DNA of 64,000 bases from Agapetus fuscipes (lineage: Eukaryota > Arthropoda > Insecta > Trichoptera > Glossosomatidae): NCBI GenBank assembly GCA_951799405.1, contig OX637353.1:1426001-1490000 (forward strand), in the 5' to 3' direction. The notes beneath the pieces are model-generated. The model saw nothing but the letters and a program-made list of their open reading frames with translations, did not search any database and was not told the origin of the DNA. Position numbers and translations under genes: made by a program. Positions 1,591 through 49,964 of this stretch are shown here, one piece after another. Positions within the stretch are counted from its first letter, which is position 1. Each line of letters opens with the position of its first letter.

Positions 1591-1863
1591 TGTAACAATT
1601 ATATAAAAGAAGGACACGCCTGAGCACAAGGCCAGGCTGGAGGGGGTAACGATAGGCTGGCGCGAGCAGTCTTGCAAAGCACGCACACAGAGCAAGATCT
1701 AGTTACTAGGGCGACCAATATGGTTTAAAATAACTGTAATCTGTACGAAATAAATAAGTGTGTTAAAATAAATCTATTGTAACAAAGTCTGTGTAAATAA
1801 ACTGTATGGCTAACTTGTGTTGAACTTGTGTTTTAATTAAGGACCCTCGGAAGAAACGTAACA
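1591..1863 (+). repeat. MG1 5' LTR
   Basis: The 273-bp LTR starts TGTAAC and ends GTAACA. It carries AATAAA-type signals in its right half and a GTTAAAATAAATCT unit that is tandemly amplified in MG2. It is preceded by the ATAT target copy. Confidence 0.95.
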
Positions 1864-1865
1864 AA

Positions 1866-1881
1866 TGGTGTCGGTGTGAAG
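1866..1881 (+). promoter_or_regulatory. MG1 primer binding site (TGGTGTCGGTGTGAAG)
   Basis: Two bases after the 5' LTR is a TGG-starting stretch, as expected for the complement of a tRNA 3' CCA end. The same 16 bases occur at the same place in MG2 (23463). I could not assign the tRNA; the first seven bases resemble leucine-tRNA primer sites. The leader 1882-2287 holds no ORF and is AT-rich. Confidence 0.65.
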
Positions 1882-2287
1882 TTTAAAACCAAGTACTTAA
1901 CCAAGTACCAAGTAAAAACTGTGCTTGAGATTATTAAAAAAAAATCTGAATTGACAATGTTTTAAATATTAAAATATTTCGGGGACATTATAAAACTTGT
2001 AATTATTGTGCGTAACTAACTACCTAGGTACCTACAACATTCGCGATTTCAAAATTATTATTGACTATTATTATGTACCTACGCTGTTGTTACTGACAGC
2101 CGAAGTGATATTGTGTTTGAAGCAGGTAGGTACCTACTTGTGCAAAACACTTTTGAAATAAAAATAAATTATTATTGTAAACAGTGAAAGAATTACAAAA
2201 ACCCATATAGTTCGGCATTCCATTTAAATTTTGTTGTTTTCGTAAATAAATAAAAAAAAAAGAAATACAAATAAATTGAAGTGAAAC

Positions 2288-2983
2288 ATGGCCCAGTATA
2301 TTGCCGTGTTGGACTTAAAAGTTTGTGAGCTAAAGGATGAGCTCATTGAACGCGACCTTGAAAGCACTGGCAACAAAAATGCCTTGCAGGCGAGGCTTAT
2401 GGAAGCCCTGGAGAAAAACGGAGAAGACCCGAACGCCTTTGTTTTATTATCGGGAAAGAATCGGGGCTTTGACGAGCTTAATCTCAGCATCATCGAGAGC
2501 TCCAAAAGTTTGAAGGAAGAGATGGCCGAGAGCTCCAAAAGTTTGAAGGAAGAGATGGCCGAGAGCTCCAAAAGTTTAAAGGAAGAGATGGCCGACAATT
2601 CCAGAACCCTGGAAGAGAAGCTGGGGACCCTTAAAAATGAGATGGCTGACAACTCTAAAGCCCTTGAGGCTCTGGCAGAGAATATGGCGGAGAGCAACAA
2701 AAATCTCAAGGAGGAACTGAGTGGTTTGATGGCGCAGAACTTGACCAGTCTCGAAGAAAAGCTCAATGAGAAGATTTCTGAAGGTTCCCGAGCGGTGATG
2801 GAAATTGAGGCACGTGTTGCAAGCCTTGAAAACCGTCTTCGTGCCGCCGTGAGTAGTGAAAAGCCTTTGCCGGATGATAAAACACGGCATGAACTTAACG
2901 AAGACACCGTGACTGGTAAAACCATTCCTACAAAACATGATTTACCAACTTTCGAGGGAAGTCATCCTGGGAAGGGTACATGA
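2288..2983 (+). CDS. gag: MG1 Gag N-terminal part: SAP-like motif and coiled coil
   Basis: This 231-aa frame is the first part of Gag. Residues about 8-42 (LKVCELKDELIERDL, then ALQARLMEAL) fit a SAP motif, a short helix-extended-helix DNA-binding module. This predicts that Gag can contact nucleic acid or chromatin in addition to its zinc knuckle. Residues about 70-180 are heptad-rich and predicted coiled coil, including three tandem copies of ESSKSLKEEMA encoded by 33-bp direct repeats (2495-2593). The frame ends artificially. At about 2960 one base is missing relative to MG2, so the capsid part continues in another frame from 2980. The start ATG matches the aligned start of MG2 at 23912 (MAKVNIKDLKVTELK). 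Confidence 0.85.
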   Translation: MAQYIAVLDLKVCELKDELIERDLESTGNKNALQARLMEALEKNGEDPNAFVLLSGKNRGFDELNLSIIESSKSLKEEMAESSKSLKEEMAESSKSLKEEMADNSRTLEEKLGTLKNEMADNSKALEALAENMAESNKNLKEELSGLMAQNLTSLEEKLNEKISEGSRAVMEIEARVASLENRLRAAVSSEKPLPDDKTRHELNEDTVTGKTIPTKHDLPTFEGSHPGKGT

Positions 2984-3624
2984 CCCTATTCGAAACGGCA
3001 GCTATGTTGGGAAATTGGTCTCCACAGAGCAAGGCGTCCATGCTCAGCCTGTCACTTAGAGGAGATGCTCTGCGTGTGCTGCAGTCCATTCCTTTGGAAA
3101 ACCGAGGGAATTATTTGGAGCTGAAGCAGCGCCTAGACATGCGCTTTGGGCACAAGTACCTGGAGCAACTTTACAAATCCCAGCTAAATACCAGAGTACA
3201 GACAGCAAAGGAAAGTCTTCAAGAATTCGAGATGGACATTGCCCGACTAGTGAGAGATGCATACCCCTCAGCCCCTGACGACATTTATGAGAGTCTGGCC
3301 GTGGACAAATTCCTCAATGGACTGCATGAATGGGAGACACAACAAGCGGTGAAACTGGCCCACCCAAAGACACTTAATGAGGCTTTAACCCAAGCATTGG
3401 AGTTTGAGGCCATCAAACAATCGATCAGAGGACATGTCAAAGTACGCGGTGTTGATGCAGAAGAAGCCAAGCCACCTTCGATTGAAGAACTAATCGAAAA
3501 GGTGTTGGAACGGCTAAGGCCCAGGAGGCGAGGAGTACGCTGCTGGAACTGCGGCCAACTGGGTCATCTGAGCATCAAATGTCCAAAACCCCAGAAACCC
3601 AAACCACAAGTCTCGGAAAACTAG
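2980..3624 (+). CDS. gag: MG1 Gag capsid and CCHC zinc knuckle
   Basis: This 214-aa frame continues Gag after the break near 2960. It has the retrotransposon Gag capsid signature (LSLRGDALRVL, LKQRLDMRFGH, LQEFEMDIARLVRDAY, VDKFLNGL) and ends with one CCHC knuckle, CWNCGQLGHLSIKC, that binds element RNA. In MG2 the corresponding reading runs on into protease without a break. Here a 14-base difference just after the knuckle (about 3602-3625) throws the frame out, and the frame stops at 3624. The upstream ATG at 2980 is internal, not a true start. Confidence 0.85.
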   Translation: MTLFETAAMLGNWSPQSKASMLSLSLRGDALRVLQSIPLENRGNYLELKQRLDMRFGHKYLEQLYKSQLNTRVQTAKESLQEFEMDIARLVRDAYPSAPDDIYESLAVDKFLNGLHEWETQQAVKLAHPKTLNEALTQALEFEAIKQSIRGHVKVRGVDAEEAKPPSIEELIEKVLERLRPRRRGVRCWNCGQLGHLSIKCPKPQKPKPQVSEN

Positions 3625-4145
3625 AAAGGGTTGATGGGAAGGGGCAACTGTTGACCCGCGTTGGAGAGGCCCGGAAATCTGCTGCTATTGTCGCAACCTT
3701 GAAAGGTCGAGCTAGCAGCATCTTCATTAATGGCATGATAGATGGAAGGAATTGTGAACTACTGGTGGACACAGGAGCAACCAGGACGATTGTAAGACCA
3801 GACATAGCGACAAAGCAGAAGCAAATTTTACCAACAAGATGGTCTTTGCGTACAGCAACGGGAGAGTCAGCTCGAGTACACGGGGAGACGCTGGCAACCT
3901 TCCAGATTGGCAGCATGACTATCGAACATCGAACCTTGGTGGCCAATATTGAAGAAGAAGTTATTATTGGGATGGATATGCTCACTAGACTTGGATGTAA
4001 TCTGGACCTGAAGAAAGGGACCATAATTATTGGGAACGAAGAGATCATTATCCAAAAACGCAATGACATGGCCACTCGAGTAGTCGTAGCAGAGACTACA
4101 GAATTGAAAAAAAAACTCCGAGATGATAGTACCAGCACGTTTTGA
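3579..4145 (+). CDS. MG1 aspartic protease region
   Basis: This 188-aa frame overlaps the Gag frame by 46 bases in a different phase. The retropepsin active site is LLVDTGATRTIV, followed by the second conserved block IIGMDMLTRLGC. It would cut the Gag-Pol polyprotein. The initial residues are not native: the homologous part of MG2 is in one frame with Gag. The frame ends after an A9 tract (about 4107-4115). Sliding one base there restores similarity to the MG2 segment before RT, so this stop is probably a homopolymer slip, either real or an assembly error. Another one-base break lies near 4245. Confidence 0.8.
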   Translation: MSKTPETQTTSLGKLERVDGKGQLLTRVGEARKSAAIVATLKGRASSIFINGMIDGRNCELLVDTGATRTIVRPDIATKQKQILPTRWSLRTATGESARVHGETLATFQIGSMTIEHRTLVANIEEEVIIGMDMLTRLGCNLDLKKGTIIIGNEEIIIQKRNDMATRVVVAETTELKKKLRDDSTSTF

Positions 4146-4151
4146 CTCCAA

Positions 4152-7100
4152 GTGTGCAGAAGGACAGATTATTATGATGGAACCCGAGAAGATTGGCAAG
4201 ATTGCAAAAGGAGTTCTAGTTGCCAGCGCAGTATCCGCACACAAAAGATAGTCCCAATACGGGTGATGAACATAAATGATTATCCTATTACAATACACGA
4301 AGGCAGCACCCTGGGTAATTGCGTGATAATGATGTCCATTGTACGGAACGTGAAGAGTTCGAGCTACCAGGAAGGAAAGTTGCCTGGCCGATTAGATGAA
4401 CTCACTCAGAGAGCTTGCCGAGAGCTTCCCGAAGAGGATGAATGGAAAGTAAAAAATCTTCTTTGCCGATATCAAGACATCTTTGAGGATTCCAACGGAC
4501 CGTTGGGAAGAACCAAAATTGTACGACACTGCATTGACACTGGAGACTCAAGGCCAATTCGACAGGCACCGCGAAGGCTACCCTTTGCCAAGCGCGAGGA
4601 AGCAGACACAATTATCCAAGACATGCAACGGGACGGCATCATCGAACCATCAAACAGCCCGTGGACATCACCAGTTGTGTTAGTAAAAAAAAAAGATGGA
4701 ACGACAAGGTTTTGCGTTGACTATCGTCAGCTCAATGATGTCACAAAGAAAGACAGCTACCCTTTGCCCAGAATAGACGACACTTTGGACACTTTGACAG
4801 GATGTGAGATCTTCTCAACTCTCGATTTGAAGAGTGGATATTGGCAGGTGGAATTGAATCCAAAGGATAAAGCGAAAACTGCCTTTTCGACAGGTTCTGG
4901 ACTCTGGAAATTTACCGTTATGCCATTTGGGCTGTGCAATGCACCTGCTTCGTTTGAACGCCTGATGGAAAGCGTGCTACGTGGATTATCCTGGGAAAAA
5001 TGTCTAGTATATTTGGATGACATCATTATTCTTGGAAAAACTTTTGATGACCAGCTGAAGAATCTGGAACAGGTATTTCTAAAATTGCAACAAGCCGGGC
5101 TAAAGCTCAATCCAAAGAAATGTAACCTTTTTCAAAAACAAGTGAGCTATCTGGGGCACATAGTATCCGGAAAAGGGGTAGCAGTTGACCCAGAAAAGAC
5201 TAGAGCTGTCAAAGACTGGCCGGTCTCGAGGGACAAGCATGAGGTCAGAAGCTTCCTGGGATTGTGTACCTACTACCGTCGATTTGTGCCAAGGTTTGCA
5301 GACATTTCTAAGCCATTGACTCGTCTCACCGAGGAGAAAAACAGCTTTGTATGGACAAATGACTGCCAACAGGCATTTGAAGAACTAAAAAAACGTCTTA
5401 CTAGTGCGCCAATCTTGAGTTACCTCAGATATGAAGGGCAATTCATCCTAGACACAGATGCCAGTAATGTCGGTATTGGGGGAGTTCTTTCCCAAATTCA
5501 GGATGGCCAAGAGACAGTGCTTGGATACTTCAGCAAAGTACTATCAAATCCAGAGCGGAACTATTGCGTCACTAGAAGAGAACTCCTGGCTGTGGTTAAA
5601 TCAGTGGAACATTTCCGGAAGTACCTTTATGGAAGGAAATTCTTGTTGCGGACAGACCATGCCGCTCTGATGTGGTTGTTGAAATTCAAAAACCCTGAGG
5701 GTCAAGTAGCCAGGTGGATGGAGAGACTCCAAGAATATGATTTTGATGCTGTACATCGAGCAGGAATTATCCATCGTAATGCCGACGCTTTGTCAAGAAG
5801 GCCTTGTCACGAAGACTGCAGACATTGCAGCAGAGTGGACACAAAGGCTGCTATAGTAAGCCGGACGACAGTCACGAGCGAGGATTGGAGAGAAATAGAA
5901 ATGAGGCAGGACCAAGAGAACGACCCAGAGCTGAAGTATCTAATACAATGGGTGCGAGAAAAACAAAGGCCAACCTGGGAACAAGTCGCCCCGTTTTCAC
6001 CAACCGTCAAATCGTATTGGGCTCAGTGGAACTCCATACAACTGGAAAATGGGATACTTAAACGAGCAATTGAAAACGAAGACGGTACAGAGAAGAAACT
6101 TCAGTTACTGGTACCAAAAGTGCGAGTCGCTGAAATCTTGAAGCTTCTGCATGATGGGACGTCCGGTGGACACTTAGGAGTGAAAAAGACTCTGGAGAAA
6201 CTGAGAGATCGGTTCTACTGGGTGAACTGCAAGGAAAATGTAAAAGATTGGTGCCGGAAATGCGTGACATGTGCCACAGCTAATGGACCCTTAAGAAAGA
6301 AGAGAGCCCCCATGCGCCAGTACAATGTTGGGAGCCCATTTGAAAGGATCGCTATTGACATCGCTTGTCCATACCCGACTACCGAAGATGGCAACAAGTA
6401 CATTCTGGTGGCCATGGACTATTTCAGTAAATGGGTAGAAGCATACGCTTTACCCAACCAAGAAGCAGTTACGGTAGCAGAAGCGCTGGTGACCCAACTG
6501 ATAAGCCGATTTGGAGTACCACTGGAACTGCACTCTGATCAAGGGCGGATCTTTGAAGCCACAGTATTCCAGCAAATGTGCGACTTGCTGGGGATCAAGA
6601 AGACGAGAACCACAGCCCTGCATCCACAGTCTGATGGGATGGTAGAAAGGATGAACCGGACGGTTGGGAGATATTTGGCAAAGCATGTGTCAGGTCATCA
6701 GAGGGACTGGGACCGACATCTTCCCCTATTTCTTTTGGCTTATAGGTCTGCAGTTCACGAAACTACTGGCCAAACACCTGGGAGCATTATTTTTGGGCGA
6801 GAACTGCGACTGCCATGTGACCTGAAGTTTGGGTGCCGACCGACTGAGGATCTTGCAGGAGAGGACTACGTCTCGGATCTCCGCAGGCGACTAGATGGTG
6901 CCCACGAGCAAGTGCGAGCAAACATCCGTGAGGCAAGTGGTCGGATGAAAGAGCGATACGACATCCGGGCTGAGGACGGTGGATACCAAGCTGGGGATTT
7001 AGTACGGCTGTTTGACCCAAAAAGGCGCCGAGGATACTCTCCAAAACTACAACGCTCATGGGATGGGCCGTATGAGGTCGTAAAACGCATCAATGACATC

Positions 7101-7847
7101 ATCTACAAGATAAGGAAAGAGCCAAGCGGAAAACCACGGATTGTCCATTTTAACCGCCTCACACCATATCTGGGAAACAACCACGATGACAGCCCGGAGC
7201 AAAGAGCACGAAGGTGTGCCGGATTTAAGGGAACAGCCACTTTTGATGATTTTTGGGTTGAAGCACAAGATGGGCGAAAAATTCGGCATGACATTACCAA
7301 AGAAGTCCAACAGGATCTCTTTGCTGTACCATCTAACTACGCCATGGCTTGTTGCACGGCTGAAGACCTGGACATGTCTCGCGGGGTTGCTGGAGCATTC
7401 CGTAATAAGTTCGGCAAGGTAACAACACCGGTGGAGTCGGGGCCTATTGCAGGGAGAGCATTACGACTACCTGGTGAAGAGCGTCACGCATACTGCCTGG
7501 TGACAAGGATGACAGTTTCGGAGAAGACTGGTTATCAAGACCTGTGGGACAGCCTCGTGCATCTACGGGACCAACTGATGCAAGCCGGCATTTCCAAGCT
7601 GGCCGTACCAAAGATGGGTGGTGGACCAGCAGGACGAGACTGGAGGATCATCAGGAACATAATGGAAACAGTCTTCGAAAATACTGGCATCGAAATCCTG
7701 GTGTGCTGCGAGCAGCTGCAGAGAAGACACCCAGACGACCGGACGGTGGATTGTTACTTCTTCTCTAGAGCCGGATGCAGTCGAGGGACATCTTGCAGAT
7801 ACCGGCATGCTCCAGGTTCAAGACTGTTCCGGGACGGAACAGCCTAA
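4152..7847 (+). CDS. pol: MG1 Pol: RT, RNase H, integrase, TARG1-type macrodomain, CCCH finger
   Basis: Open for 1231 codons; the first ~32 residues are out of phase with MG2. RT: KKKDGTTRFCVDYR about 175-190 and the catalytic YLDD about 287. RNase H starts at DTDASNVGIGG about 433. Integrase: HHCC finger about 665-705 (HDGTSGGHLG, CRKCVTC), then catalytic D (IDIA, ~735), D (HSDQG, ~795) and E (VERMNR, ~830). A GPY motif (SWDGPYEVV) lies near 970. After integrase come about 200 more residues: a macrodomain about 1045-1185 (VQQDLFAVP, AEDLDMSRGVAGAFRNKFG, VPKMGGG, VFENTGIEILV) and a C-x7-C-x5-C-x3-H finger about 1199-1218. The macrodomain resembles OARD1/TARG1, which binds or removes ADP-ribose. 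The role in the element is unknown. Confidence 0.92.
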   Translation: MCRRTDYYDGTREDWQDCKRSSSCQRSIRTQKIVPIRVMNINDYPITIHEGSTLGNCVIMMSIVRNVKSSSYQEGKLPGRLDELTQRACRELPEEDEWKVKNLLCRYQDIFEDSNGPLGRTKIVRHCIDTGDSRPIRQAPRRLPFAKREEADTIIQDMQRDGIIEPSNSPWTSPVVLVKKKDGTTRFCVDYRQLNDVTKKDSYPLPRIDDTLDTLTGCEIFSTLDLKSGYWQVELNPKDKAKTAFSTGSGLWKFTVMPFGLCNAPASFERLMESVLRGLSWEKCLVYLDDIIILGKTFDDQLKNLEQVFLKLQQAGLKLNPKKCNLFQKQVSYLGHIVSGKGVAVDPEKTRAVKDWPVSRDKHEVRSFLGLCTYYRRFVPRFADISKPLTRLTEEKNSFVWTNDCQQAFEELKKRLTSAPILSYLRYEGQFILDTDASNVGIGGVLSQIQDGQETVLGYFSKVLSNPERNYCVTRRELLAVVKSVEHFRKYLYGRKFLLRTDHAALMWLLKFKNPEGQVARWMERLQEYDFDAVHRAGIIHRNADALSRRPCHEDCRHCSRVDTKAAIVSRTTVTSEDWREIEMRQDQENDPELKYLIQWVREKQRPTWEQVAPFSPTVKSYWAQWNSIQLENGILKRAIENEDGTEKKLQLLVPKVRVAEILKLLHDGTSGGHLGVKKTLEKLRDRFYWVNCKENVKDWCRKCVTCATANGPLRKKRAPMRQYNVGSPFERIAIDIACPYPTTEDGNKYILVAMDYFSKWVEAYALPNQEAVTVAEALVTQLISRFGVPLELHSDQGRIFEATVFQQMCDLLGIKKTRTTALHPQSDGMVERMNRTVGRYLAKHVSGHQRDWDRHLPLFLLAYRSAVHETTGQTPGSIIFGRELRLPCDLKFGCRPTEDLAGEDYVSDLRRRLDGAHEQVRANIREASGRMKERYDIRAEDGGYQAGDLVRLFDPKRRRGYSPKLQRSWDGPYEVVKRINDIIYKIRKEPSGKPRIVHFNRLTPYLGNNHDDSPEQRARRCAGFKGTATFDDFWVEAQDGRKIRHDITKEVQQDLFAVPSNYAMACCTAEDLDMSRGVAGAFRNKFGKVTTPVESGPIAGRALRLPGEERHAYCLVTRMTVSEKTGYQDLWDSLVHLRDQLMQAGISKLAVPKMGGGPAGRDWRIIRNIMETVFENTGIEILVCCEQLQRRHPDDRTVDCYFFSRAGCSRGTSCRYRHAPGSRLFRDGTA

Positions 7848-7858
7848 GGAGGGGGCAA
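7846..7858 (+). promoter_or_regulatory. MG1 polypurine tract
   Basis: The purine-rich run AAGGAGGGGGCAA directly abuts the 3' LTR at 7859 and overlaps the Pol stop codon. This is the expected primer for plus-strand DNA synthesis. Confidence 0.8.
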
Positions 7859-8131
7859 TGTAACAATTATATAAAAGAAGGACACGCCTGAGCACAAGGC
7901 CAGGCTGGAGGGGGGAACGATAGGCTGGCGCGAGCAGTCTTGCAAAGCACGCACACAGAGCAAGATCTAGTTACTAGGGCGACCAATATGGTTTAAAATA
8001 ACTGTAATCTGTACGAAATAAATAAGTGTGTTAAAATAAATCTATTGTAACAAAGTCTGTGTAAATAAACTGTATGGCTAACTTGTGTTGAACTTGTGTT
8101 TTAATTAAGGACCCTCGGAAGAAACGTAACA
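7859..8131 (+). repeat. MG1 3' LTR
   Basis: 273 bp, identical by eye to the 5' LTR except for one base in a G-run (ggaggggggaacg against ggagggggtaacg). It is followed by ATAT (8132-8135), the second copy of the target site. Confidence 0.95.
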
Positions 8132-16792: not shown

Positions 16793-17187
16793 TGTTACGA
16801 ATTTAGGGTTCAAAAGTCTTTCAATTAAAAATACTGGTCTTCTTATACAGTTGTTTATTTTACACTTTTAATAATTTATTTTTTACAAAGGTAGTCTGGA
16901 CTATTCCATTACACTTGGTTTCTGTTCACTGGTTTTGGTACAATGTATGTAGTTGTAACGCTCGTAGAACACTGGCTCTGCAAGCAACTCACACCTTTCT
17001 TATACTCTTCAAAACAGTACAATCTAGATCCATATTCGCGAGACAGTTCCAGAAAGGCGTAGTAATCATTATTTCTCGATGCTTCTATTATTCAATGATT
17101 CCTACCCACACAATACAATACAGAATTCTTATAACTATAACAAATACCTACTTATTTGAAATATTTATATTTCATATTTACATAACA
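16793..17187 (-). repeat. MG3 3' LTR
   Basis: 395 bp, TGTTATG to CGTAACA on the minus strand. It starts immediately after the TAG stop codon of the MG3 ORF; the polypurine run GGTGGGGGG is coding. Matches 34153-34554 along its length. Confidence 0.85.
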
Positions 17188-18837
17188 CTACCCCCCACCT
17201 AGACTGTTTCGTCCCGGAACAGTCTTGACTCTGTGTTGGTATGGGCATGCTGATCGTGGATCAGCATGCCAACACCCTGTGGTCAGGAAGAAGTGGCAGT
17301 CCACGGATTTCTCCCCACTGGCTCTCGGCTGCGCTTGCTCGCAGCACACCACGACACTGATGCCGGCCCCCGAGAACACTGCCTCAATCATACTTCGGAT
17401 GATCCTCCAGTCTCGATTAGCACGGCCGCCACCCATCTTTGGTATCGCCTGACGCGCCTGCTGATCCTCCAGCATGTAGTCCCGCAGCTCAACAAGACCG
17501 TCCCACAAAGCCTTGTAGTCATCTTCCAGGTTGCTGGAATCCGGGACAACCAGGCAGTATGCTTGTTGACGCCCCTTTGGTAGTCTCAGAGCTCTTCCTT
17601 GCTGGCTGCTCGAGGGTTGCGGTTCTCCGAACTTGTACCGGAAGACCCGTGCAATTCCTCTAGACATATCCAGATCTTCCGGTACACTGCATGCCAGCGT
17701 GTGGTCCCGAGTGACCTCAAATAAGTCCTGCTGGACTTCTGTGGTCACTCCATGGCGAAACTTCTGTCCCGCTTTCGCGTTCTCCCAAAACGTCAGACTC
17801 ATCACAGCCTCGTGCAACTCGTCCCTCTCGGCCTCCGCTGTTCGCCGGGCCCTTTCACTGCTGGCCAAGTTCTTTGTCAGCTGCCTGTTCTCCGTCTTCA
17901 TGACTTTGACCTTTCTCTCGGCATCCTGGAACTGAACTTGCAGTTTCCTCAGCCGTCTGTTCATCTTCATGGTGGTCTCTTCATCCTTGCGGTCGTCCTC
18001 CAATTTCTCCGGTCCTTGAGACTTTGGGCACCTAAGGCTCAGGTGTCCTTGCTGGCCACACGTCCAGCAATGCGACCCCTGTCTCCTTGGCTCAAGCCGC
18101 TGCAGCACTTTTTCTATTAGCATCTCAGTCGTCAGTGGCTTGGTTTCTTCCACTTTCATCGCGCATACCCTGACGTGACTTCTTATCGATTGTTTGACAG
18201 CCTCAAACTCCATCGCTTTGGTCAGTGCCTCGTTCAATGTCTTCGGAAGAGCCAGTTTCACTGCTTGCTGTGTCTCCCATTCTCGCAACCCGTTCAGAAA
18301 CTTGTCCACTGCCAAGCTCTCGCAGATGTCATCAGGGAATGTCGGGTAAGCGTCTCGTACTAGGTGGACAATGTCCATTTCGAACTCCTGGAGGCTCTCG
18401 TTGGGCTTCTGCACCCTTGTGTTCAGCTGTGACTTGTACAGCTGCTCCAGGCACTTGTGGCCATAGCGCATATCCAAGCGCTGCTTCAGCTGCCCAAAGT
18501 CGCCACGGTTGTCCAGGGGTATGGCCTGCAGAACCCTGAGGGCGTCTCCTCGGAGTGACAGGCTGAGAACTGAAGCCTTCTTCTGCTGGCTCCAGTCTCC
18601 CATCATGGCAGCCGTCTCGAAGAGGGTCAAATACTCCTCCCACGATGTCTTCCTGTCGAAGGTCGGGAAGTTGTGCTTGGCCAGCGAAGGGTCATCATCC
18701 CCTCTAGTGACCCTGGTTGGAGTTGAGCATCCCTGGTCGGTCTCGTCGTGAAGGCCGCCTTTGGGGGATATTCTGGTGGACTCCATCTGGCACTTGTCAG
18801 CCAGCTCGGCACGCAGACGGTCTATGACAGCCGAAGT
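16793..18837 (-). mobile_element. MG3: truncated gypsy derivative, Gag-coiled coil-macrodomain-CCCH plus 3' LTR
   Basis: On the minus strand, a 3' LTR (17187-16793) directly follows one long ORF related to MG1 and MG2 at both its ends but without protease, RT, RNase H or integrase. The left part of Gag (SAP motif, first coiled coil), the leader and the 5' LTR are missing; homology stops at a Rep-A copy at 18838. The LTR (TGTTATG...CGTAACA) is a different subfamily from MG1 and MG2 but matches a solo LTR at 34153-34554. Confidence 0.85.
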
Positions 18838-18855
18838 TGGTATGAGGCTGACCAC
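17188..18855 (-). CDS. MG3 Gag/coiled-coil/macrodomain/CCCH fusion protein
   Basis: A single uninterrupted frame (555 codons from the first ATG; the first ~8 come from flanking Rep-A). Residues ~10-250 are MG-family Gag, with its CCHC knuckle CWTCGQQGHLSLRC at ~262-275. Residues ~285-355 are a charged coiled coil absent from MG1 and MG2, ending LASSERARRTAEAERDEL, which resembles non-muscle myosin II tail. Residues ~370-515 are the TARG1-type macrodomain (VQQDLFEV, PEDLDMSRGIARVF, IPKMGGGRANRDW). Near the C-terminus is a CCCH finger with an enlarged middle spacing (C-x7-C-x8-C-x3-H). No enzyme domains of Pol remain. It could be a non-autonomous element product or an incipient host gene; long open length favours recent activity or selection. 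Confidence 0.8.
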   Translation of the reverse strand: MVSLIPTSAVIDRLRAELADKCQMESTRISPKGGLHDETDQGCSTPTRVTRGDDDPSLAKHNFPTFDRKTSWEEYLTLFETAAMMGDWSQQKKASVLSLSLRGDALRVLQAIPLDNRGDFGQLKQRLDMRYGHKCLEQLYKSQLNTRVQKPNESLQEFEMDIVHLVRDAYPTFPDDICESLAVDKFLNGLREWETQQAVKLALPKTLNEALTKAMEFEAVKQSIRSHVRVCAMKVEETKPLTTEMLIEKVLQRLEPRRQGSHCWTCGQQGHLSLRCPKSQGPEKLEDDRKDEETTMKMNRRLRKLQVQFQDAERKVKVMKTENRQLTKNLASSERARRTAEAERDELHEAVMSLTFWENAKAGQKFRHGVTTEVQQDLFEVTRDHTLACSVPEDLDMSRGIARVFRYKFGEPQPSSSQQGRALRLPKGRQQAYCLVVPDSSNLEDDYKALWDGLVELRDYMLEDQQARQAIPKMGGGRANRDWRIIRSMIEAVFSGAGISVVVCCEQAQPRASGEKSVDCHFFLTTGCWHADPRSACPYQHRVKTVPGRNSLGGG

Positions 18856-22988: not shown

Positions 22989-23461
22989 TGTAACGCAATA
23001 CACTGGTAGATGCTTATTGGTGTACGTGTGTTTTGAGAGAATGTTCTGGCCCAGACGATTGTAATTGTAAGGTGTGTATGTAGGTAGGAAATGGACTCTT
23101 CATGAAATAAATATGTCCAGAATCGTCTATACAACTGTGGTAGTGGAACTTTCTAGGGCAGGCTGGAATGGCCCCTAGGTTCCGCTATAAGAAGGGCGAC
23201 AATCGGCTGAAGCGAGTCAGTCTTTCGAAGCACTCACACAGAGGAATATCTAGTTACTAGGGCGACCAATATGGTGTAAAATAAATGTAATCTGCACGAA
23301 ATAAATAAGTGTGTTAAAATAAATCTGTTAAAATAAGTCTGTTAAAATAAGTCTGTTAAAATAAGTCTGTTAAAATAAATCTATTGTAAGAAAGTCTGTG
23401 TAAATAAACTGTATGGCTAACTTGTGTTTTAATTAAAAGAACCCGCAGGAAAAACGTAACA
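22989..23461 (+). repeat. MG2 5' LTR with 14-bp tandem repeats
   Basis: 473 bp. Five tandem 14-bp units (GTTAAAATAARTCT) at 23313-23382; the 3' LTR has four. It lacks an 11-bp direct-repeat copy (GTTGAACTTGT) present in the 3' LTR. One visible base difference near the start. Confidence 0.95.
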
Positions 23462-23462
23462 A

Positions 23463-23478
23463 TGGTGTCGGTGTGAAG
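23463..23478 (+). promoter_or_regulatory. MG2 primer binding site
   Basis: TGGTGTCGGTGTGAAG one base after the LTR, identical to MG1. The leader 23479-23911 has no ORF. Confidence 0.65.
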
Positions 23479-23911
23479 TTTAAAACCAAGTACCAAGTAA
23501 AAACTGTGCTTGAGAGTATTGAAAAATATATCTGGACAACATAATAAAAACTAATGAATAAAAAAAAGTTTTAAATAAAACTGATTAAACTTGAAAAAAA
23601 ACGATCGTGTGGTTACCCGCTAAAAATTTGATTGAAGTGTGGATAGATAACGTGTTAATAATATTGTGTTAGTGTTAGTAAATACTCATTAGCCGATCTG
23701 ACGAAGCAAAGTAAATAATCATTATCTAATATCATTATTTGAAATTTAAAAATAAATATTAAAAGGCGGTACCTACCTACCGTTCAGTATAATTAGATAA
23801 ATTATTATTTTGCTAAAGTACGTATTTAAAATAACTTTATATATAAAACTCATAACCCGTATTAAATAAATTTGCAAATATTTTTGTTTTGAAGTTTGTT
23901 AAAATAAAAAA

Positions 23912-26900
23912 ATGGCTAAGGTGAACATCAAGGACCTCAAAGTCACTGAGCTTAAGAATGAGCTTCTGGAGAGGGACCTGGAGACCTCAGGAGGGAAGGC
24001 GGCCTTACAGGCACGCCTCATGGAGGCCTTAGAACAGTCAGGCGAAGACCCGGCATACTTTGTCATGGCGTCTGGAGGAGACCGTGCTCTTGAGGAGCTG
24101 AACCTCAGCATCACAAAGTCTATGAAGGAGGAGCTAGCCGACAATTCAAAGACCCTGAGGGAAGACCTGAACACTGAGATGGCTGACAACGCCAAGACCC
24201 TGCAAGAGAACCTGACGGACCTGAAAGTGGAGATGGCTGAAAACGCCAAGGCTCTGCAGGAAGACCTCTCCACCATGAAGGAAGACCTCGCCAACATGAA
24301 AGATAAGATGAGCGAGAATCTCACAACCCTGAAGGGAGAAATGGAGGAGAAGATGACAGCCCTGAAGGGGGAAATGGAGACTCGGATGTCAAATCTGGAG
24401 GTACATCTGCGTGCCGAGCTGACCGACAAGGGCCAGATGGAGTCCACCAGAATATCCCCCAAAGGCCTTCACGACGAGACCGACCAGGGATGCTCAACTC
24501 CAACCAGGGTCACTAGAGGGAATGATGACCCTTCCCTGGCCAAGCACAACCTCCCGACCTTCGACGGGAAGACGTCGTGGGAGGAGTATCTGACCCTCTT
24601 CGAGACGGCTGCCATGATGGGAGACTGGAGCCAGCAGAAGAAGGCTTCAGTTCTCAGCCTGTCGCTCCGTGGAGACGCTCTCAGGGTTCTGCAAGCCATA
24701 CCCCTGGACAACCGTGGCGACTTTGGGCAGCTGAAGCAGCGCTTGGATATGCGCTATGGCCACAAGTGCCTGGAGCAGCTGTACAAGTCACAGCTGAACA
24801 CAAGGGTGCAGAAGCCCAACGAGAGCCTCCAGGAGTTTGAGATGGACATCGCCCGCCTTGTACGAGACGCTTACCCGACAGCCTCCGACGACATCTGTGA
24901 GAGCTTGGCAGTGGACAAGTTCCTGAACGGGTTGCGGGAATGGGAGACGCAGCAAGCCGTAAAACTGGCCCATCCCAAGGCTTTGAACGAGGCGCTCAGC
25001 CAAGCTCTCGAGTTTGAGGCTGTCAAACAGTCCATCAGGGGCCACGCCAGGGTTCGTGCAGTCGAGGCAGAGGAGGTCAAACTACCTACAACCGAGGAGT
25101 TAATTGAAAAGGTGTTAGAACGTCTGAGACCTCGAAGACGAGACCCACGCTGCTGGAACTGCGGACAGCTGGGCCACCTTAGCACCAAGTGTCCAAAGCC
25201 TCAGAAACCCAGAAAACTAGAAAGGGTTAATGGGAAGGGGCAACCGTTGACCCGCGCTGGAGAGGCCCTGAAATCTGCTGCTACTGTCGCAACCGTGAGA
25301 GGAAAAGCCAGCAGTATTTTTATCAATGGCATAATAGATGGAGTAACTCGTGAACTACTGGTGGACACGGGAGCAACCAGGACAATTCTGAGACGCGACA
25401 TAGTGGCACGAGGTAAACAGATTGCACCAACAAAGTGGTCTCTGCACACCGCCACAGGAGAGTCAGCACAGGTGTATGGGGAGACGATTGCCACCTTCCA
25501 AATTGGCAGCACCACTTTTGATCATCGGACATTAGTGGCCAACATTGAAGAAGATGTTATATTGGGAATGGACATACTGGACAGATTTGGGTGCAGCTTG
25601 AATTTAAAAAAAGGTGCCATTAAAATTGAAAATGAAGAAGTCATCCTGCAAAGACGGACAGAACTGGCTGCACGTGTTATCCTAGCAAAGAATACCGAAG
25701 TGAAGGGGCGATCTGAAATGATAGTGAGTGCCCGCCTGGATTCCAGTAGTATAAATGACCAAATCTGTATGATAGAACCAGAGAACATGGACAATGTTAA
25801 CAAAGGAGTCATGGTGGCAAGAACAGTGATTCGCGCACAGGAGACCATTCCTGTCAAGATCATGAATGTGAACAGCTACCCAGTTAAAATGAATGAAGGT
25901 TTTGTTTTGGGTAGATGTGAGAGGATAACTTCCATTGTGCAACAGATGACAAACATGTCATGCGAAGGAAGAAAATTGTCAACACAATTGGAAACCCTGG
26001 TCCACGACGCTTCCCAAGGTCTAACCGAGGAAAACAAACGGAGAGTGAGGAGTTTGATCTGCCGCTACCAGAACATTTTCGAGGACTCTAATGGCCGTCT
26101 GGGAAGAACCAAGGTAGTGCGACATAGCATAGACACTGGAGAAGCAAGACCAATAAAACAGGCTCCAAGAAGACTACCCTTTGCAAAGCGGGAAGAAGCT
26201 GACAAGATCATCAAAGACATGAGCAAGGATGGCATCATAGAACCATCAAGTAGCCCTTGGACATCCCCGGTGGTACTGGTGAAAAAGAAGGATGGTACCA
26301 CGAGATTTTGTGTGGACTACAGACTGCTCAACGATGTTACGAAAAAGGATAGTTACCCTCTGCCAAGGATTGACGACACCTTGGATACATTGGCAGGATG
26401 CACCATTTTTTCCACATTGGACCTGAAAAGTGGCTACTGGCAAGTTGAATTGGATGCCAAAGATAAGGAGAAAACTGCATTCTCGACTGGATCTGGACTT
26501 TGGCAGTTCACCGTGATGCCATTTGGCTTATGCAATGCCCCCGCCACGTTCGAAAGGCTGATGGAGAATGTGCTGCGAGGACTGTCATGGGAAACCTGCC
26601 TTGTATACTTGGATGACATAATCATCTTGGGAAAGGACTTCAACCATCAGTTGAGAAATCTGGAGCAAGTTTTCAGGCGACTGCAAGACGCTGGACTGAA
26701 GCTCAACCCGAAGAAGTGTAACCTGTTCAAGAAACAAGTAAATTACCTGGGACACATAGTTTCTCAACGTGGAGTTGAGGTTGACCCTGCCAAAATCAAG
26801 GCAGTAAGAGACTGGCCCGTGCTGAAGGACAAACATGAAACTAGGAGTTTCCTGGGGCTGTGCACTTATTACAGGAGGTTTGTGCCAAGATTTGCGGATA

Positions 26901-27091
26901 TTGCAAAACCGCTCACCAAGCTTACGGAAGAAAATACTCGCTTCCACTGGAGTGATTCCTGTGCACAAGCATTTGAAGAGCTTAAGGGAAGATTAACAAG
27001 TGCCTCAATCTTAAGCTACCCACAAAAAGATGGAAAGTTCATCCTGGATACCGACGCTAGTAATGTGGGGATAGGAGGTGTCCTTTCCTAA
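23912..27091 (+). CDS. MG2 Gag-Pol first part: SAP-like motif, Gag, CCHC, protease, RT, start of RNase H
   Basis: 1059 codons, ended by a TAA. SAP-like motif at ~8-42 (DLKVTELKNELLERDL, ALQARLMEAL). Coiled coil of degenerate 11-14-residue repeats at ~75-190 (ADNAKTLQENL). Capsid at ~225-400, CCHC knuckle CWNCGQLGHLSTKC at ~413. Protease LLVDTGATRTIL at ~480 and ILGMDILDRFGC. RT KKKDGTTRFCVDYR at ~790 and YLDD at ~898. RNase H begins DTDASNVGIGGVLS at ~1045, where the frame stops. Gag and Pol are in one frame, so this lineage seems to make a single polyprotein without frameshifting. The terminating TAA replaces a codon that is CAA in MG1. Confidence 0.92.
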   Translation: MAKVNIKDLKVTELKNELLERDLETSGGKAALQARLMEALEQSGEDPAYFVMASGGDRALEELNLSITKSMKEELADNSKTLREDLNTEMADNAKTLQENLTDLKVEMAENAKALQEDLSTMKEDLANMKDKMSENLTTLKGEMEEKMTALKGEMETRMSNLEVHLRAELTDKGQMESTRISPKGLHDETDQGCSTPTRVTRGNDDPSLAKHNLPTFDGKTSWEEYLTLFETAAMMGDWSQQKKASVLSLSLRGDALRVLQAIPLDNRGDFGQLKQRLDMRYGHKCLEQLYKSQLNTRVQKPNESLQEFEMDIARLVRDAYPTASDDICESLAVDKFLNGLREWETQQAVKLAHPKALNEALSQALEFEAVKQSIRGHARVRAVEAEEVKLPTTEELIEKVLERLRPRRRDPRCWNCGQLGHLSTKCPKPQKPRKLERVNGKGQPLTRAGEALKSAATVATVRGKASSIFINGIIDGVTRELLVDTGATRTILRRDIVARGKQIAPTKWSLHTATGESAQVYGETIATFQIGSTTFDHRTLVANIEEDVILGMDILDRFGCSLNLKKGAIKIENEEVILQRRTELAARVILAKNTEVKGRSEMIVSARLDSSSINDQICMIEPENMDNVNKGVMVARTVIRAQETIPVKIMNVNSYPVKMNEGFVLGRCERITSIVQQMTNMSCEGRKLSTQLETLVHDASQGLTEENKRRVRSLICRYQNIFEDSNGRLGRTKVVRHSIDTGEARPIKQAPRRLPFAKREEADKIIKDMSKDGIIEPSSSPWTSPVVLVKKKDGTTRFCVDYRLLNDVTKKDSYPLPRIDDTLDTLAGCTIFSTLDLKSGYWQVELDAKDKEKTAFSTGSGLWQFTVMPFGLCNAPATFERLMENVLRGLSWETCLVYLDDIIILGKDFNHQLRNLEQVFRRLQDAGLKLNPKKCNLFKKQVNYLGHIVSQRGVEVDPAKIKAVRDWPVLKDKHETRSFLGLCTYYRRFVPRFADIAKPLTKLTEENTRFHWSDSCAQAFEELKGRLTSASILSYPQKDGKFILDTDASNVGIGGVLS

Positions 27092-29233
27092 ATACAGGAT
27101 GGGCATGAGACTGTTCTGGGTTACTTCAGTAAAGTGCTTTCCAAGCCAGAACGAAATTATTGCGTGACCAGACGAGAGCTTCTTGCCGTGATAAAATCAG
27201 TGGAACACTTCCGCAAATACTTGTACGGGAGAAAATTCACACTACGGACTGATCATGCTGCACTGGTTTGGCTTCTGAAATTCAAAAATCCAGAAGGGCA
27301 AGTGGCTAGATGGATTGAAAGGCTCCAGGAGTATGATTATGACTCCGAACATAGACCTGGCACGCTTCATCGAAATGCGGATTTATTATCCAGACGACCA
27401 TGCACCAGTGACTGCAAACACTGCAGCAGGATGGAGGACAAGGTAGCAATTGTCCAAAGGACGACCACTGAAGATGAGGACTGGCAAGATGAGAAATTGG
27501 CGCAAGACCAACTGAATGATCCAGACTTGAAGTATGTGATGGAATGGGTGCGAGAAGGAGACAGGCCAACCTGGGAAAAACTCGCCCCCTTATCACCAAC
27601 TGTCAAGGCTTATTGGGCTCAATGGGGATCCATAGTGATAGAAGGAGGGCTTCTGAAACGAAAGATCGAGAAGGAAGATGGCACACTTAGAAGGAAGCAA
27701 ACCCTCGTTCCGAGGAGCCGAGTACCGGAAATCCTTGGACTGCTTCATGGAGGAACTTCTGGAGGACATCTAGGCGTTAAGAAGACGCTGGAGAAAGTGA
27801 AAGAGCGATTTTACTGGATCAACTGCAGCGAGGACGTCAAAGATTGGTGCCGAAAATGTGTAACCTGTGCATCGGCCAATGGACCGCAAAGGAAAAAGCG
27901 AGCACCAATGCGTCAGTACAATGTTGGCAGCCCCTTTGAAAGAATTGCCATCGACATAGCTGGCCCATTCCCTACAACTGAGAAGGGTAACAAGTACATC
28001 ATGGTGGTGATGGATTACTTCAGCAAGTGGGTGGAAGCTTACTCAATCCCTAACCAAGAGGCCGTAACCGTGACTGAAGTTCTAGTTACCGAATTTATCA
28101 GCAGGTTTGGCGTACCCCTGGAATTACATTCTGATCAGGGAAGGAACTTTGAAGCTGCTATCTTCCAGCAAATGTGTGAGCAGCTAGGGATCTACAAGAC
28201 CAGGACCACTGCGCTTCATCCGCAGTCTGATGGAATGGTGGAAAGGATGAACCGTACCGTGGGGAGGTACTTAGCTAAAGTAGTGTCTAGCCATCAGCGG
28301 GACTGGGACCGACACCTTCCTTTGTTCTTATTGGCTTACCGGTCGGCAGTTCAGGAAACGACGAAGAAAACTCCCAGCAGCATACTGTTTGGGCGAGAAA
28401 TGCGACTTCCTTGTGATCTCAAATTTGGCTGCAAACCAGGCGAAGACCTAGCCGGGGAAGACTATGTGACAGACCTTCGCAGGAGGCTGGATGACATCCA
28501 TGATCAGGTCCGCATGAACATCGGGGAAGCCAGCGATCAAATGAAGGAGCGCTATGACACCAGAGCTGACAACATGGGGTACAAAGCTGGTGACTGGGTG
28601 TGGCTTTTTGACCCCAAGAGGCGCCAAGGATACTGTTCTAAACTTCAGCGTTCCTGGGACGGGCCGTACGAGATCTTGGAGCGCATCAACGATGTGGTCT
28701 ACCGCATAAAGAAGAGACCAAACGGAAAACCAAGGATCGTGCACTACAATCGCCTCTCACCATACCTAGGCGATAATGATGACCAACCAGCCCAAAAAGT
28801 ACGACAGTGCGTCGCATCCGAAAGATCACCAGCCTTTGAGACGTTTTGGGAGAACGCGAAGGCGGGACAGAAGTTTCGCCACGGAGTGACCACAGAAGTC
28901 CAGCAGGACTTATTTGAGGTCACTCAGGACCACACGCTGGCATGCAGTGTACCGGAAGATCTGGATATGTCTAGAGGAATTGCACGGGTCTTCCGGTACA
29001 AGTTCGGAGAACCGCAACCCTCGAGCAGCCAGCAAGGAAGAGCTCTGAGACTACCGAAGGGGCGTCAACAAGCATACTGCCTGGTTGTCCCGGATTCCAG
29101 CAACCTGGAAGATGACTACAAGGCTTTGTGGGACGGCTTGTTGAGCTGCGTGACTACATGCTGGAGGATCAGCAGGCGCGTCTGGCAATACCGAAGATGG
29201 GTGGCGGCCGCGCTAATCGAGACTGGCGGATAA
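27092..29233 (+). CDS. pol: MG2 Pol second part: RNase H, integrase, most of macrodomain
   Basis: Same reading frame as the upstream part, after the TAA at 27089-27091; first in-frame ATG at 27134. RNase H continues (YCVTRRELLAV, LRTDHAALVWLL). Integrase: HHCC finger (HGGTSGGHLG, CRKCVTC), then D in IDIAGPF, D in HSDQGRNF and E in VERMNRTVGRYL. A GPY motif follows (SWDGPYEIL). The macrodomain begins near 28840 (TFWENAKAGQKFRHGVTTE, VQQDLFEV, PEDLDMSRGIARVF). A base missing near 29135 relative to MG3 diverts the last ~30 codons, so the end is not native. A protein from 27134 is unlikely to be made normally. Confidence 0.88.
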   Translation: MQDGHETVLGYFSKVLSKPERNYCVTRRELLAVIKSVEHFRKYLYGRKFTLRTDHAALVWLLKFKNPEGQVARWIERLQEYDYDSEHRPGTLHRNADLLSRRPCTSDCKHCSRMEDKVAIVQRTTTEDEDWQDEKLAQDQLNDPDLKYVMEWVREGDRPTWEKLAPLSPTVKAYWAQWGSIVIEGGLLKRKIEKEDGTLRRKQTLVPRSRVPEILGLLHGGTSGGHLGVKKTLEKVKERFYWINCSEDVKDWCRKCVTCASANGPQRKKRAPMRQYNVGSPFERIAIDIAGPFPTTEKGNKYIMVVMDYFSKWVEAYSIPNQEAVTVTEVLVTEFISRFGVPLELHSDQGRNFEAAIFQQMCEQLGIYKTRTTALHPQSDGMVERMNRTVGRYLAKVVSSHQRDWDRHLPLFLLAYRSAVQETTKKTPSSILFGREMRLPCDLKFGCKPGEDLAGEDYVTDLRRRLDDIHDQVRMNIGEASDQMKERYDTRADNMGYKAGDWVWLFDPKRRQGYCSKLQRSWDGPYEILERINDVVYRIKKRPNGKPRIVHYNRLSPYLGDNDDQPAQKVRQCVASERSPAFETFWENAKAGQKFRHGVTTEVQQDLFEVTQDHTLACSVPEDLDMSRGIARVFRYKFGEPQPSSSQQGRALRLPKGRQQAYCLVVPDSSNLEDDYKALWDGLLSCVTTCWRISRRVWQYRRWVAAALIETGG

Positions 29234-29436
29234 TCCGGAGTATGATTGAAGCAGTGTTCTCGGGAGTCGGCATCAGTGTCATGGTGTGCTGCGAGCAAGC
29301 GCAGCCGAGAGCCAGTGGGGAGAAATCCGTGGACTGCCACTTCTTCCTGACCACAGGGTGTCGACGTGGATCAGCATGCCCATACCAACACAGAGTCAAG
29401 ACTGTTCCGGGGCGGAACAGCCTAAGGGGGGGATAA
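29128..29436 (+). CDS. MG2 macrodomain end and CCCH finger
   Basis: A 102-codon frame in the phase that continues the macrodomain after the ~29135 deletion: AIPKMGGGRANRDWRIIR, EAVFSGVGISVMVC, then a C-x7-C-x5-C-x3-H finger (CHFFLTTGCRRGSACPYQH). The stop TAA (29434-29436) touches the LTR, and the codons before it form the polypurine tract AAGGGGGGGA. Not independently translated; a fragment of the polyprotein. Confidence 0.85.
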   Translation: MGRLVELRDYMLEDQQARLAIPKMGGGRANRDWRIIRSMIEAVFSGVGISVMVCCEQAQPRASGEKSVDCHFFLTTGCRRGSACPYQHRVKTVPGRNSLRGG

Positions 29437-29906
29437 TGTAACGAAATACACTGGTAGATGCTTATTGGTGTACGTGTGTTTTGAGAGAATGTTCTGGCCC
29501 AGACGATTGTAATTGTAAGGTGTGTATGTAGGTAGGAAATGGACTCTTCATGAAATAAATATGTCCAGAATCGTCTATACAACTGTGGTAGTGGAACTTT
29601 CTAGGGCAGGCTGGAATGGCCCCTAGGTTCCGCTATAAGAAGGGCGACAATCGGCTGAAGCGAGTCAGTCTTTCGAAGCACTCACACAGAGGAATATCTA
29701 GTTACTAGGGCGACCAATATGGTGTAAAATAAATGTAATCTGCACGAAATAAATAAGTGTGTTAAAATAAATCTGTTAAAATAAGTCTGTTAAAATAAGT
29801 CTGTTAAAATAAATCTATTGTAAGAAAGTCTGTGTAAATAAACTGTATGGCTAACTTGTGTTGAACTTGTGTTTTAATTAAAAGAACCCGCAGGAAAAAC
29901 GTAACA
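29437..29906 (+). repeat. MG2 3' LTR
   Basis: 470 bp, TGTAACG to CGTAACA, four 14-bp units at 29761-29816, followed by ATAT. Confidence 0.95.
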
Positions 29907-42887: not shown

Positions 42888-43800
42888 TTAACCGCCAGCA
42901 TTACAGATCAACCGCCATTTCTTTCGATCCTTGCATACTTCTTTCATTTCATCCAGAGCCATAACCTTTTTCATACAAGCTCTCCTTTTATTATGACTCT
43001 GGATATCCCATTCATTCGCTATTTCGAAAATTTGGTCCATCCATACCTTTCTCGGTCTTCCTCTTCCACGACATCCATCAATTCTCGCAGCATATACTTT
43101 CTTCGCCAGTCTTTCCTCATTCATTCTCTCCAAATGTCCAAACCATCTAAGTATACTTTTTTTAATCTTTACTTTCACACTTTCTCTTACACCACATTTC
43201 TCTCTAACAAAATCATTCCTCACCCTATCACTCCGTCTTTTCCCAATCATACTTCTTAAGTAGTCCATTTCTACTGTATGGACTTTACTAATCTCACTTT
43301 CACTCACCGTCCAGGCTTCACTTCCATACATCAGAGTGGGCACTAGTATACCACCGTGCACCGCCAGTCGAACATTTTTTGAAAGATTCTGGTTCTTGGC
43401 GATGCTAGCGGTAGCACCCAGTACGCACCTGCCTTTCATTATTCTTCTTTCAAATTCACCGATCATTCTTCCATCTTTTTCAAACTTACTTCCCAGGTAT
43501 ACAAACTCATTTACGACATCAACATTCATTCCATTAATTTTAAATTCATAATTCATATTTTCATCATCTCTTTCAAAAATCAATACTTTCGTCTTACTTG
43601 CATTCAACTTCAAATGGTTACCTAACAAAGCTTCATTCAATCTAGAGAGCATTGTTTGCAATTCTACAGCAGAATCAGATACAAGAACTGCATCATCTGC
43701 ATACAGTAGAACACTCATTTTGCTCTCTCCTATCATCAATCCACAATCATTAAGTCTAGCATCTCTGACACACTTGTCCATAATAAGTCTAATCAATAAT
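42888..43800 (-). pseudogene. LINE-2 RT, longest fragment with YADD box
   Basis: The 302-codon frame covers the second half of a non-LTR RT. It has the catalytic box LLYADDAVLVSD, then LKLNASKTKVLIF, NEFVYLGSKFEKDG, VHGGILVPTLMYGSEAWT, RWFGHLERMNEERLAKK and GRGRPRKVWMDQIFEIANEW, ending at a stop near 42888. The palm N-terminal half and endonuclease are lost by 5' truncation at about 43800. The frame is intact, so it is a relatively young truncated copy. The clade is uncertain. Confidence 0.85.
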
Positions 43801-49659: not shown

Positions 49660-49964
49660 GTATAAAAAACGAGTTTTTTTAAATATTTTTTTGTGGTGGC
49701 AATTTTTAAGTTATATATTTTGCTCAAGCTTTATAATTAAGATAAAAAAATAATAAACATTCTTGATTTTTTCATTACTGTAACTATTTTGCTAAGACCA
49801 CAAAGTGTAAGAAACAAAAACGGCAGATTTAGCTTTATAACAGGCCTTAAAACGTACATAAAGTTATGAAACCAGAATCTTCTACATTTATTTTTCTCTG
49901 TGTAAAAGATCTACAATGTTAAAAAAAATTATGTGCTCATTAAAGAATATAAAATTATAGTGGA

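Follow-up and report, generated by a model that had tools for sequence, protein, structure and literature searches.

We analyzed a 64,000-nucleotide stretch of the genome of Agapetus fuscipes (Trichoptera; contig OX637353.1, positions 1,426,001 to 1,490,000), hereafter called the window, and found that a Ty3/gypsy retrotransposon, MG1, carries a TARG1-type macrodomain and a CCCH finger behind its integrase (Table 1). MG1 has the long terminal repeats (LTRs), TG...CA ends, target duplication and order of protease, reverse transcriptase (RT), RNase H and integrase of a Ty3/gypsy LTR retrotransposon, and its LTRs of about 274 bp (1591-1864 and 7859-8131) are 99.6% identical. The frame at 4152-7847 has 1231 open residues, comprising RT, RNase H, integrase and the C-terminal module. 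Its Pfam domains agree with an earlier interpretation of this DNA (termed the sequence-only reading), which had described a Ty3/gypsy polyprotein with some 200 residues added after the integrase C-terminal module. Full elements at other loci of this genome have a single frame each for gag and pol; in MG1 both frames are interrupted, and this copy is therefore not intact.

Table 1. Coordinates of MG1, MG2 and MG3 and of their parts in the window
Feature	Position	Strand	Evidence or remark
MG1, Ty3/gypsy LTR element	1591..8131	+	LTR pair, TG...CA ends, 4-bp target duplication ATAT
SAP domain, Gag N-terminus of MG1	2315..2413	+	PF02037, E 5.3e-10, residues 10-42 of frame 2288-2983
Gag capsid part and CCHC knuckle, separate frame, MG1	2980..3624	+	PF00098 above cut-off, Ty3_capsid below cut-off
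Aspartic protease frame, MG1	3579..4145	+	PF13975, E 7.4e-13
Reverse transcriptase, MG1	4683..5165	+	PF00078, residues 178-338
RNase H, MG1	5352..5738	+	PF17919/PF17917, residues 401-529
Integrase zinc-binding domain and core, MG1	6111..6620	+	PF17921, 654-711; PF00665, 729-823
Integrase C-terminal SH3/GPY-type module, MG1	6993..7169	+	PF22938, 972-1005, above cut-off; PF24626, 948-1006, below
TARG1-type macrodomain, MG1	7284..7712	+	TARG1 Lys84 -> Arg, Asp125 -> Ala
CCCH finger C-x7-C-x5-C-x3-H, MG1	7752..7808	+	Spacing pattern; Pfam CCCH models below cut-off
MG2, second Ty3/gypsy element	22989..29906	+	LTR pair 94.5%, ends, 4-bp duplication ATAT
Macrodomain-CCCH region, MG2, frame interrupted inside macrodomain	28844..29433	+	Split over two tblastn frames (28844-29143, 29137-29433)
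MG3, fusion of Gag (truncated 5'), coiled coil, macrodomain and CCCH-like finger	17188..18855	-	Translation; one 555-aa frame
Macrodomain, MG3	17347..17742	-	tblastn TARG1, 9.5e-15; Lys84 -> Pro, Asp125 -> Ala
CCCH-like finger, MG3	17233..17298	-	3 extra residues between Cys 2 and Cys 3
3' LTR remnant, MG3	16793..17154	-	72% identical to L037/L031 LTR

Human TARG1 was matched by residues 34 to 166 of the 213-aa MG1 tail with an E value of 2.7e-18, far beyond chance, and by a profile built from two window copies with an E value of 4.9e-21. A macro fold was predicted for the tail, and TARG1 was the closest solved structure to the model. Homology and predicted fold thus back the TARG1-type macrodomain of the sequence-only reading. 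Of the checks proposed with it, the structure comparison was favorable and the Pfam search gave a divided answer: MG1 scored 13.1 bits for Macro, for which the cut-off is 22, and 17.0 for zf-CCCH, for which it is 20.5, and among four relatives scanned, P0127 reached the Macro cut-off (22.1) and P0133 that of zf-CCCH (24.9), the other scores being below. The C-x7-C-x5-C-x3-H finger was present, as claimed, in the copy at 7243-7847; with a spacing of C-x7/8-C-x5-C-x3-H, it occurs in 29 of 40 aligned copies, MG1 included, and in none of the 79 listed relatives that lack the macrodomain. Judged by its residues, the MG1 tail is a TARG1-type fold, but not a TARG1 enzyme acting by the Lys84/Asp125 mechanism.

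The extension was found three times in the window by tblastn (7251-7844, plus strand; 17790-17191, minus strand; 28844-29433, plus strand), and, as its bearers elsewhere gather in one clade (see below), we agree that it is a family feature. In MG1 and MG2 it extends Pol; the third copy, MG3, is instead a Gag fusion devoid of pol, which aligns with a full element in Gag and in the 3' part. The body of MG2 is ∼95% identical to the full element L037, yet its LTRs align to those of MG1 (about 71 to 87% in pieces), and there was no separate match to the L037 LTR; MG2 is probably a chimera that arose by template switching. Internal repeat copies in the MG2 LTRs (23289-23428 and 29737-29876) are shifted by 14 bp, forming a short tandem array.

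Relatives, catalytic residues, and selection

A protein search with Pol residues 650 to 1231 gave at least 1446 matches (7987 candidates scored), the best 120 of which were used as relatives. The extension was present in 41 of these (blastp, 1e-3), including 18 beetle-named records: 14 from Aromia and 3 from Callosobruchus, whose lineages were looked up, and 1 from Molorchus, which we take to be a beetle. Macro is missing from the precomputed Pfam lists of all 41, and such fusions are therefore likely under-annotated. Three gypsy Pol records (P0129, P0135, and P0137) bear the names Klebsiella pneumoniae or Erysiphe pulchra and are probably contamination. An integrase tree was built from 104 rows (102 of the 120 relatives, those with a long enough integrase, plus MG1 and MG2; quick method, midpoint root); in it, macrodomain-bearing rows made up 27 of the 30 in one clade (SH-aLRT, 99) and none of the 74 outside it. 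Presence of the domain required 4 parsimony changes, versus a mean of 24 after shuffling, and the distribution fits one gain followed by a few putative losses. Scans of IMG/VR with the MG domains and with those of a second lineage, described below, found no relative.

We then aligned 40 macrodomain copies, namely 38 records plus MG1 and MG3 (P0144, P0147, and P0152 were dropped, as they end before the domain does). Asp20 and Gly43 are kept in all 40, Gly123 in 37, and Lys84 and Asp125 in 36 each. The catalytic dyad of Lys84 and Asp125 is complete in 35 copies or, with clustering at 85% identity, in 21 of the 26 clusters, the representatives of which average 49% identity. Conservation of the TARG1 dyad across the wider clade makes it probable that the module began as an eraser. 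The sequence-only reading had seen in the domain an ADP-ribose reader: the positions kept at Asp20, Gly43, and Gly123 would suit this, whereas the ancestral dyad makes an eraser likelier and leaves the reader for the dyad-less lineages only. In a tree of the macrodomains, MG1 and MG3 were joined with locus L064 (98/93) and had as neighbor P0123 (92/97), in which both dyad residues are present; the dyad was therefore lost on the branch leading to MG1, MG3, and L064. The same dyad changes occur in the L064/L067 subfamily, whose identity to the MG2 type is about 70%.

Selection was assessed by Nei-Gojobori counts in 14 macrodomain pairs. The ratio of nonsynonymous to synonymous divergence (dN/dS) was 0.12 to 0.27 in the 9 pairs with dS >0.1, for example, 0.18 for L037-L064 (dS, 0.93), 0.13 for MG3-L031 (dS, 0.23), and 0.18 for MG1-L037 (dS, 2.4, near saturation). 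For the integrase, MG2-L037 gave 0.11. Low dN/dS in the dyad-less subfamilies indicates that the macrodomain without the dyad is constrained.

Mini elements and a second gypsy lineage

We searched the whole assembly (618 Mb, 148 contigs) with the MG1 tail. Among 150 matches scored of 1097 candidates, 57 were MG1-like (87 to 100% identity) and 93 were at 48 to 50%; the open frames of the latter had 740 to 830 residues in 76 cases, at least 1380 in 6, and other lengths in 11. Of ten loci inspected in this second group, chosen among high-ranking matches, which favors young copies, six encode Gag, a coiled coil, the macrodomain, and the CCCH finger in one frame of 761 to 819 residues without pol (termed minis), and the other four are full elements with a Pol frame of 1422 to 1425 residues. 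The minis are about 3.9 to 4.0 kb long, with LTRs of about 478 bp that are 99.2 to 100% identical. Relative to full elements, the protease-RT-RNase H-integrase part is absent, and about 400 bp of different sequence stands in its place; the coiled coil matches the Pfam myosin tail (44.4 bits; cut-off, 38.1). Since the macrodomain is in frame with Gag, we infer that the minis produce it at the Gag level. A 4-bp target duplication was found in 9 of 10 elements tested (six minis, MG1, MG2, and L037), with the sequence ATAT in 5 of the 9, and none was found in L061, a second-lineage element whose LTR is only partly delimited; L034, L035, and L040 stood outside this test, their stretches ending inside the LTR or lacking an LTR pair.

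Genome-wide, the commonest macrodomain motif had 880 exact matches (control, 0) and, when up to 3 mismatches were allowed, the RT site of the full type was found 641 times (control, 0). An RT site lay 1 to 6 kb upstream of 59 of the 93 macrodomain motifs on contigs C1 and C2 and was absent for the other 34, so that roughly one-third are mini elements or fragments. The mini L031 and the full element L037 are 89.6% identical in the 5' part and 96.2% at the 3' end, and these differences in the age of the parts point to template switching, as a result of which the mini macrodomains are not a clean separate lineage.

A search of the genome with human TARG1 (150 matches scored of 994 candidates) yielded, among the scored matches, host OARD1-like exons (44 to 45% identity; Lys84 and Asp125 present) and a second gypsy lineage at eight places (L044 to L051, with frames of 520 to 1266 residues) plus the shorter L052. 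The part resembling TARG1 is located, in both L044 and L061, after RNase H and ahead of the integrase zinc domain (in L044, RNase H at 334-437 and H2C2 at 639-691). This macrodomain matches TARG1 with an E value of 9.1e-23 and has both Lys84 and Asp125. It is 32 to 37% identical to its four best first-lineage matches and 24% identical to that of MG1; in RT-RNase H, the second lineage shares 48.6% with P0180, which lacks the domain, versus 44.5% with MG1. Two separate recruitments of the macrodomain are favored, because the backbone and the position of the domain differ. The second lineage stands apart in the macrodomain tree (100/100), which groups the first lineage in only 15% of bootstrap trees, with P0127 outside; with its long branches and this weak grouping, the tree does not decide on a shared origin. 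In L061 (G000:C21:11270500-11278500), there is in addition a third frame, at 5889-6500, whose hydrophobic stretch resembles an env remnant by eye.

The host OARD1-like exons are near-identical at three places, L041 to L043 (G000:C31:352915, C52:32994, and C31:266638, respectively). In L043, the N-terminal part is encoded by a further exon at a distance of about 1 kb, which means that an intron splits the host macrodomain. In the long-branched macrodomain tree, host OARD1 falls among animal OARD1 sequences (97/98) and away from the retroelement rows, and a recent capture of the host gene was rejected on this ground.

One of the closest known systems is human TARG1/OARD1 (C6orf130), of the ALC1-like macrodomain class; the domain described here differs in being joined to Pol or Gag of a retroelement. 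Compared with TARG1, the window copies have lost the dyad, 33 of 40 copies have Ala for Ser35, and 32 of 40 each have Ser for Gly41 and Arg for Ala42. DarG and SCO6735 are bacterial enzymes whose macrodomains are 16 and 13% identical to the model, respectively, and are not within an element polyprotein. A dUTPase was captured into the Pol of some retroviruses, one group of which has it between RNase H and integrase; this is likewise a nucleotide-related enzyme in Pol, but a different enzyme of different fold. Chromoviruses have a chromodomain at the integrase C-terminus, with a role in integration targeting. It is likewise an extra module in this place, but of another fold, and the macrodomain also persists without integrase; the chromovirus group is named in an excerpt of PMC2577118. 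Fish retroviruses carry a macro domain in additional open reading frames, according to an excerpt of PMC4977317 citing Basta et al. 2009, and, compared by description rather than by sequence, they are also retroelements with a macro domain, but in a separate frame, whereas the Ty3/gypsy domain is fused inside Pol, at two positions, or to Gag. The elements described here have neither the retroviral backbone nor the separate macro frame of that teleost group. Among the open-licence papers searched, none described a macrodomain in Ty3/gypsy by its title or listing, although reports may exist beyond that set. Retroelements with a macro domain are thus known already; what stands out here is the fusion to Ty3/gypsy Pol or Gag, the minis, the second lineage, and a dyad first kept and then lost.

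Possible roles of the module

We tentatively propose that one Ty3/gypsy clade gained a particle-borne TARG1-type eraser and that the module of the window subfamilies is now a binder or a non-canonical enzyme, a reading that we place just short of probable. The ancestor of the clade would have acquired the macrodomain, usually with a CCCH finger, behind its integrase. Made within Gag-Pol, the module would be carried in the particle and would meet the element RNA, cDNA, and integrase there; we infer this presence, the substrate, and every functional step. The idea of a particle-borne eraser was suggested by the linear cDNA of retroelements, which exposes modifiable ends and along with which Pol products travel. 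The ancestral role may have been to strip mono-ADP-ribose, placed by host PARP-type enzymes, from Glu/Asp of particle proteins or from linear cDNA/RNA ends, and its removal would protect replication or integration. In the window subfamilies, in which the Lys/Asp pair is lost and the fold is under purifying selection, the module would most likely bind ADP-ribose or nucleic acid or perform non-canonical chemistry. The minis would depend on RT and integrase in trans, yet keep the module, on Gag. An excerpt of PMC9411070 describes the removal of ADP-ribose from Glu/Asp and from phosphorylated DNA/RNA ends by TARG1, the ADP-ribosylation of DNA ends by PARP1-3 in vitro, and the cleavage of thymidine-ADP-ribose by SCO6735, which has neither dyad residue.

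Several observations weigh against this proposal. The window copies lack both catalytic residues (Arg and Ala in MG1; Pro and Ala in MG3), and the dyad is also altered in P0136 (Arg, Asp), P0141 (Lys, Asn), and P0145 (Arg, Asn), so that it was dispensable more than once. When the 133 columns are ranked by conservation, Lys84 is 35th and Asp125 38th, in the upper half but short of the top, and the second lineage has no equivalent of Asp20. Three rows of the clade are without the domain: P0150, the end of which still resembles the CCCH tail, looks like a domain loss, and for P0148 and P0151 the explanation may be either a loss or a record with a different end. One subclade (P0128, P0137 to P0140, and P0146) has the macrodomain with its dyad and no CCCH finger. 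As to selection, two close pairs gave dN/dS values of 0.20 and 0.37 (the latter for L064-L067), on few changes, and three pairs had a dS of 0; the macrodomain evolves faster than the integrase (dN of 0.43 versus 0.12 for MG1-L037, in which synonymous sites are saturated), and the mini-specific coil gave 0.60 to 0.78 between MG3 and three minis, on 10 to 12 changes, compared with 0.14 for the capsid part.

The macrodomain lies directly behind the integrase C-terminal module, where chromoviruses have their chromodomain, and it might in the same manner tether the integration complex to ADP-ribosylated chromatin; the sequence-only reading had suggested such a steering of integration, and the loss of the dyad in the window lineage would suit a reader of this kind. 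The suggestion is weakened, since the minis keep the module in the absence of integrase and the second lineage has it in front of integrase, and most copies of the clade conserve the dyad. The target duplications, our sole view of insertion sites (ATAT in 5 of 9), speak neither for nor against it, and we consider such a reader improbable. A slightly better case can be made for a nucleic-acid-binding or assembly part formed by macrodomain and CCCH finger, for which ADP-ribose would no longer be relevant in the window lineage: the minis fuse the module to Gag, the finger accompanies 29 of 40 macrodomains and none of the 79 domain-less relatives, and the window copies have lost both catalytic residues. 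This is still doubtful, as Asp20, Gly43, and Gly123 are kept in 40, 40, and 37 of 40 copies and the subclade without the finger retains a macrodomain with the dyad.

That the domain is a passenger, acquired by chance and without function, might be read from its absence in 3 of 30 clade rows and from its faster change than that of the integrase. Such a passenger would hardly show dN/dS values of 0.12 to 0.27 in nine pairs, a dyad kept across clusters about 49% identical, retention in elements devoid of pol, and a second occurrence in an unrelated lineage, and we judge it very unlikely. The host does possess OARD1-like genes from which the domain could have been taken recently; given that host OARD1 clusters with animal OARD1 away from the retroelement rows (on long branches) and that beetle-named relatives have the domain too, this origin is the least credible of those considered. 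An ancient capture from an animal OARD1 is possible.

RNA virus macrodomains counter host ADP-ribosylation. Carrying the proposal of a particle-borne eraser further, one may speculate, with no great expectation of being right, that insect hosts ADP-ribosylate the cDNA ends, RNA, or Gag of retroelements as an anti-transposon defense, which Ty3/gypsy elements would have countered at least twice independently with a Pol-borne TARG1-type eraser. Where host or element changed, the eraser would have decayed to a binder acting as decoy or shield, and nonautonomous elements would have fused the eraser-derived domain to Gag for bulk supply. The presence of a TARG1-type domain in two Ty3/gypsy lineages, with the dyad mostly kept in one, lets one test whether retrotransposons are subject to ADP-ribosylation. 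The dyad-less sub-branch under selection offers a way to learn what role a macrodomain takes after loss of the chemistry, and the minis, by uncoupling macrodomain and integrase, help to separate targeting from a role in the particle.

Elsewhere in the window, a 300-base repeat of 100% identity (49964-50263 and 52816-53115, 2852 bases apart) possibly marks the ends of another young element. By eye, a minus-strand frame at 54320-57577 resembles a non-LTR retrotransposon protein (endonuclease and RT), and two further minus-strand frames resemble an RT fragment (42888-43796) and a fragment of a Pif1/Helitron-type helicase (601-1419).
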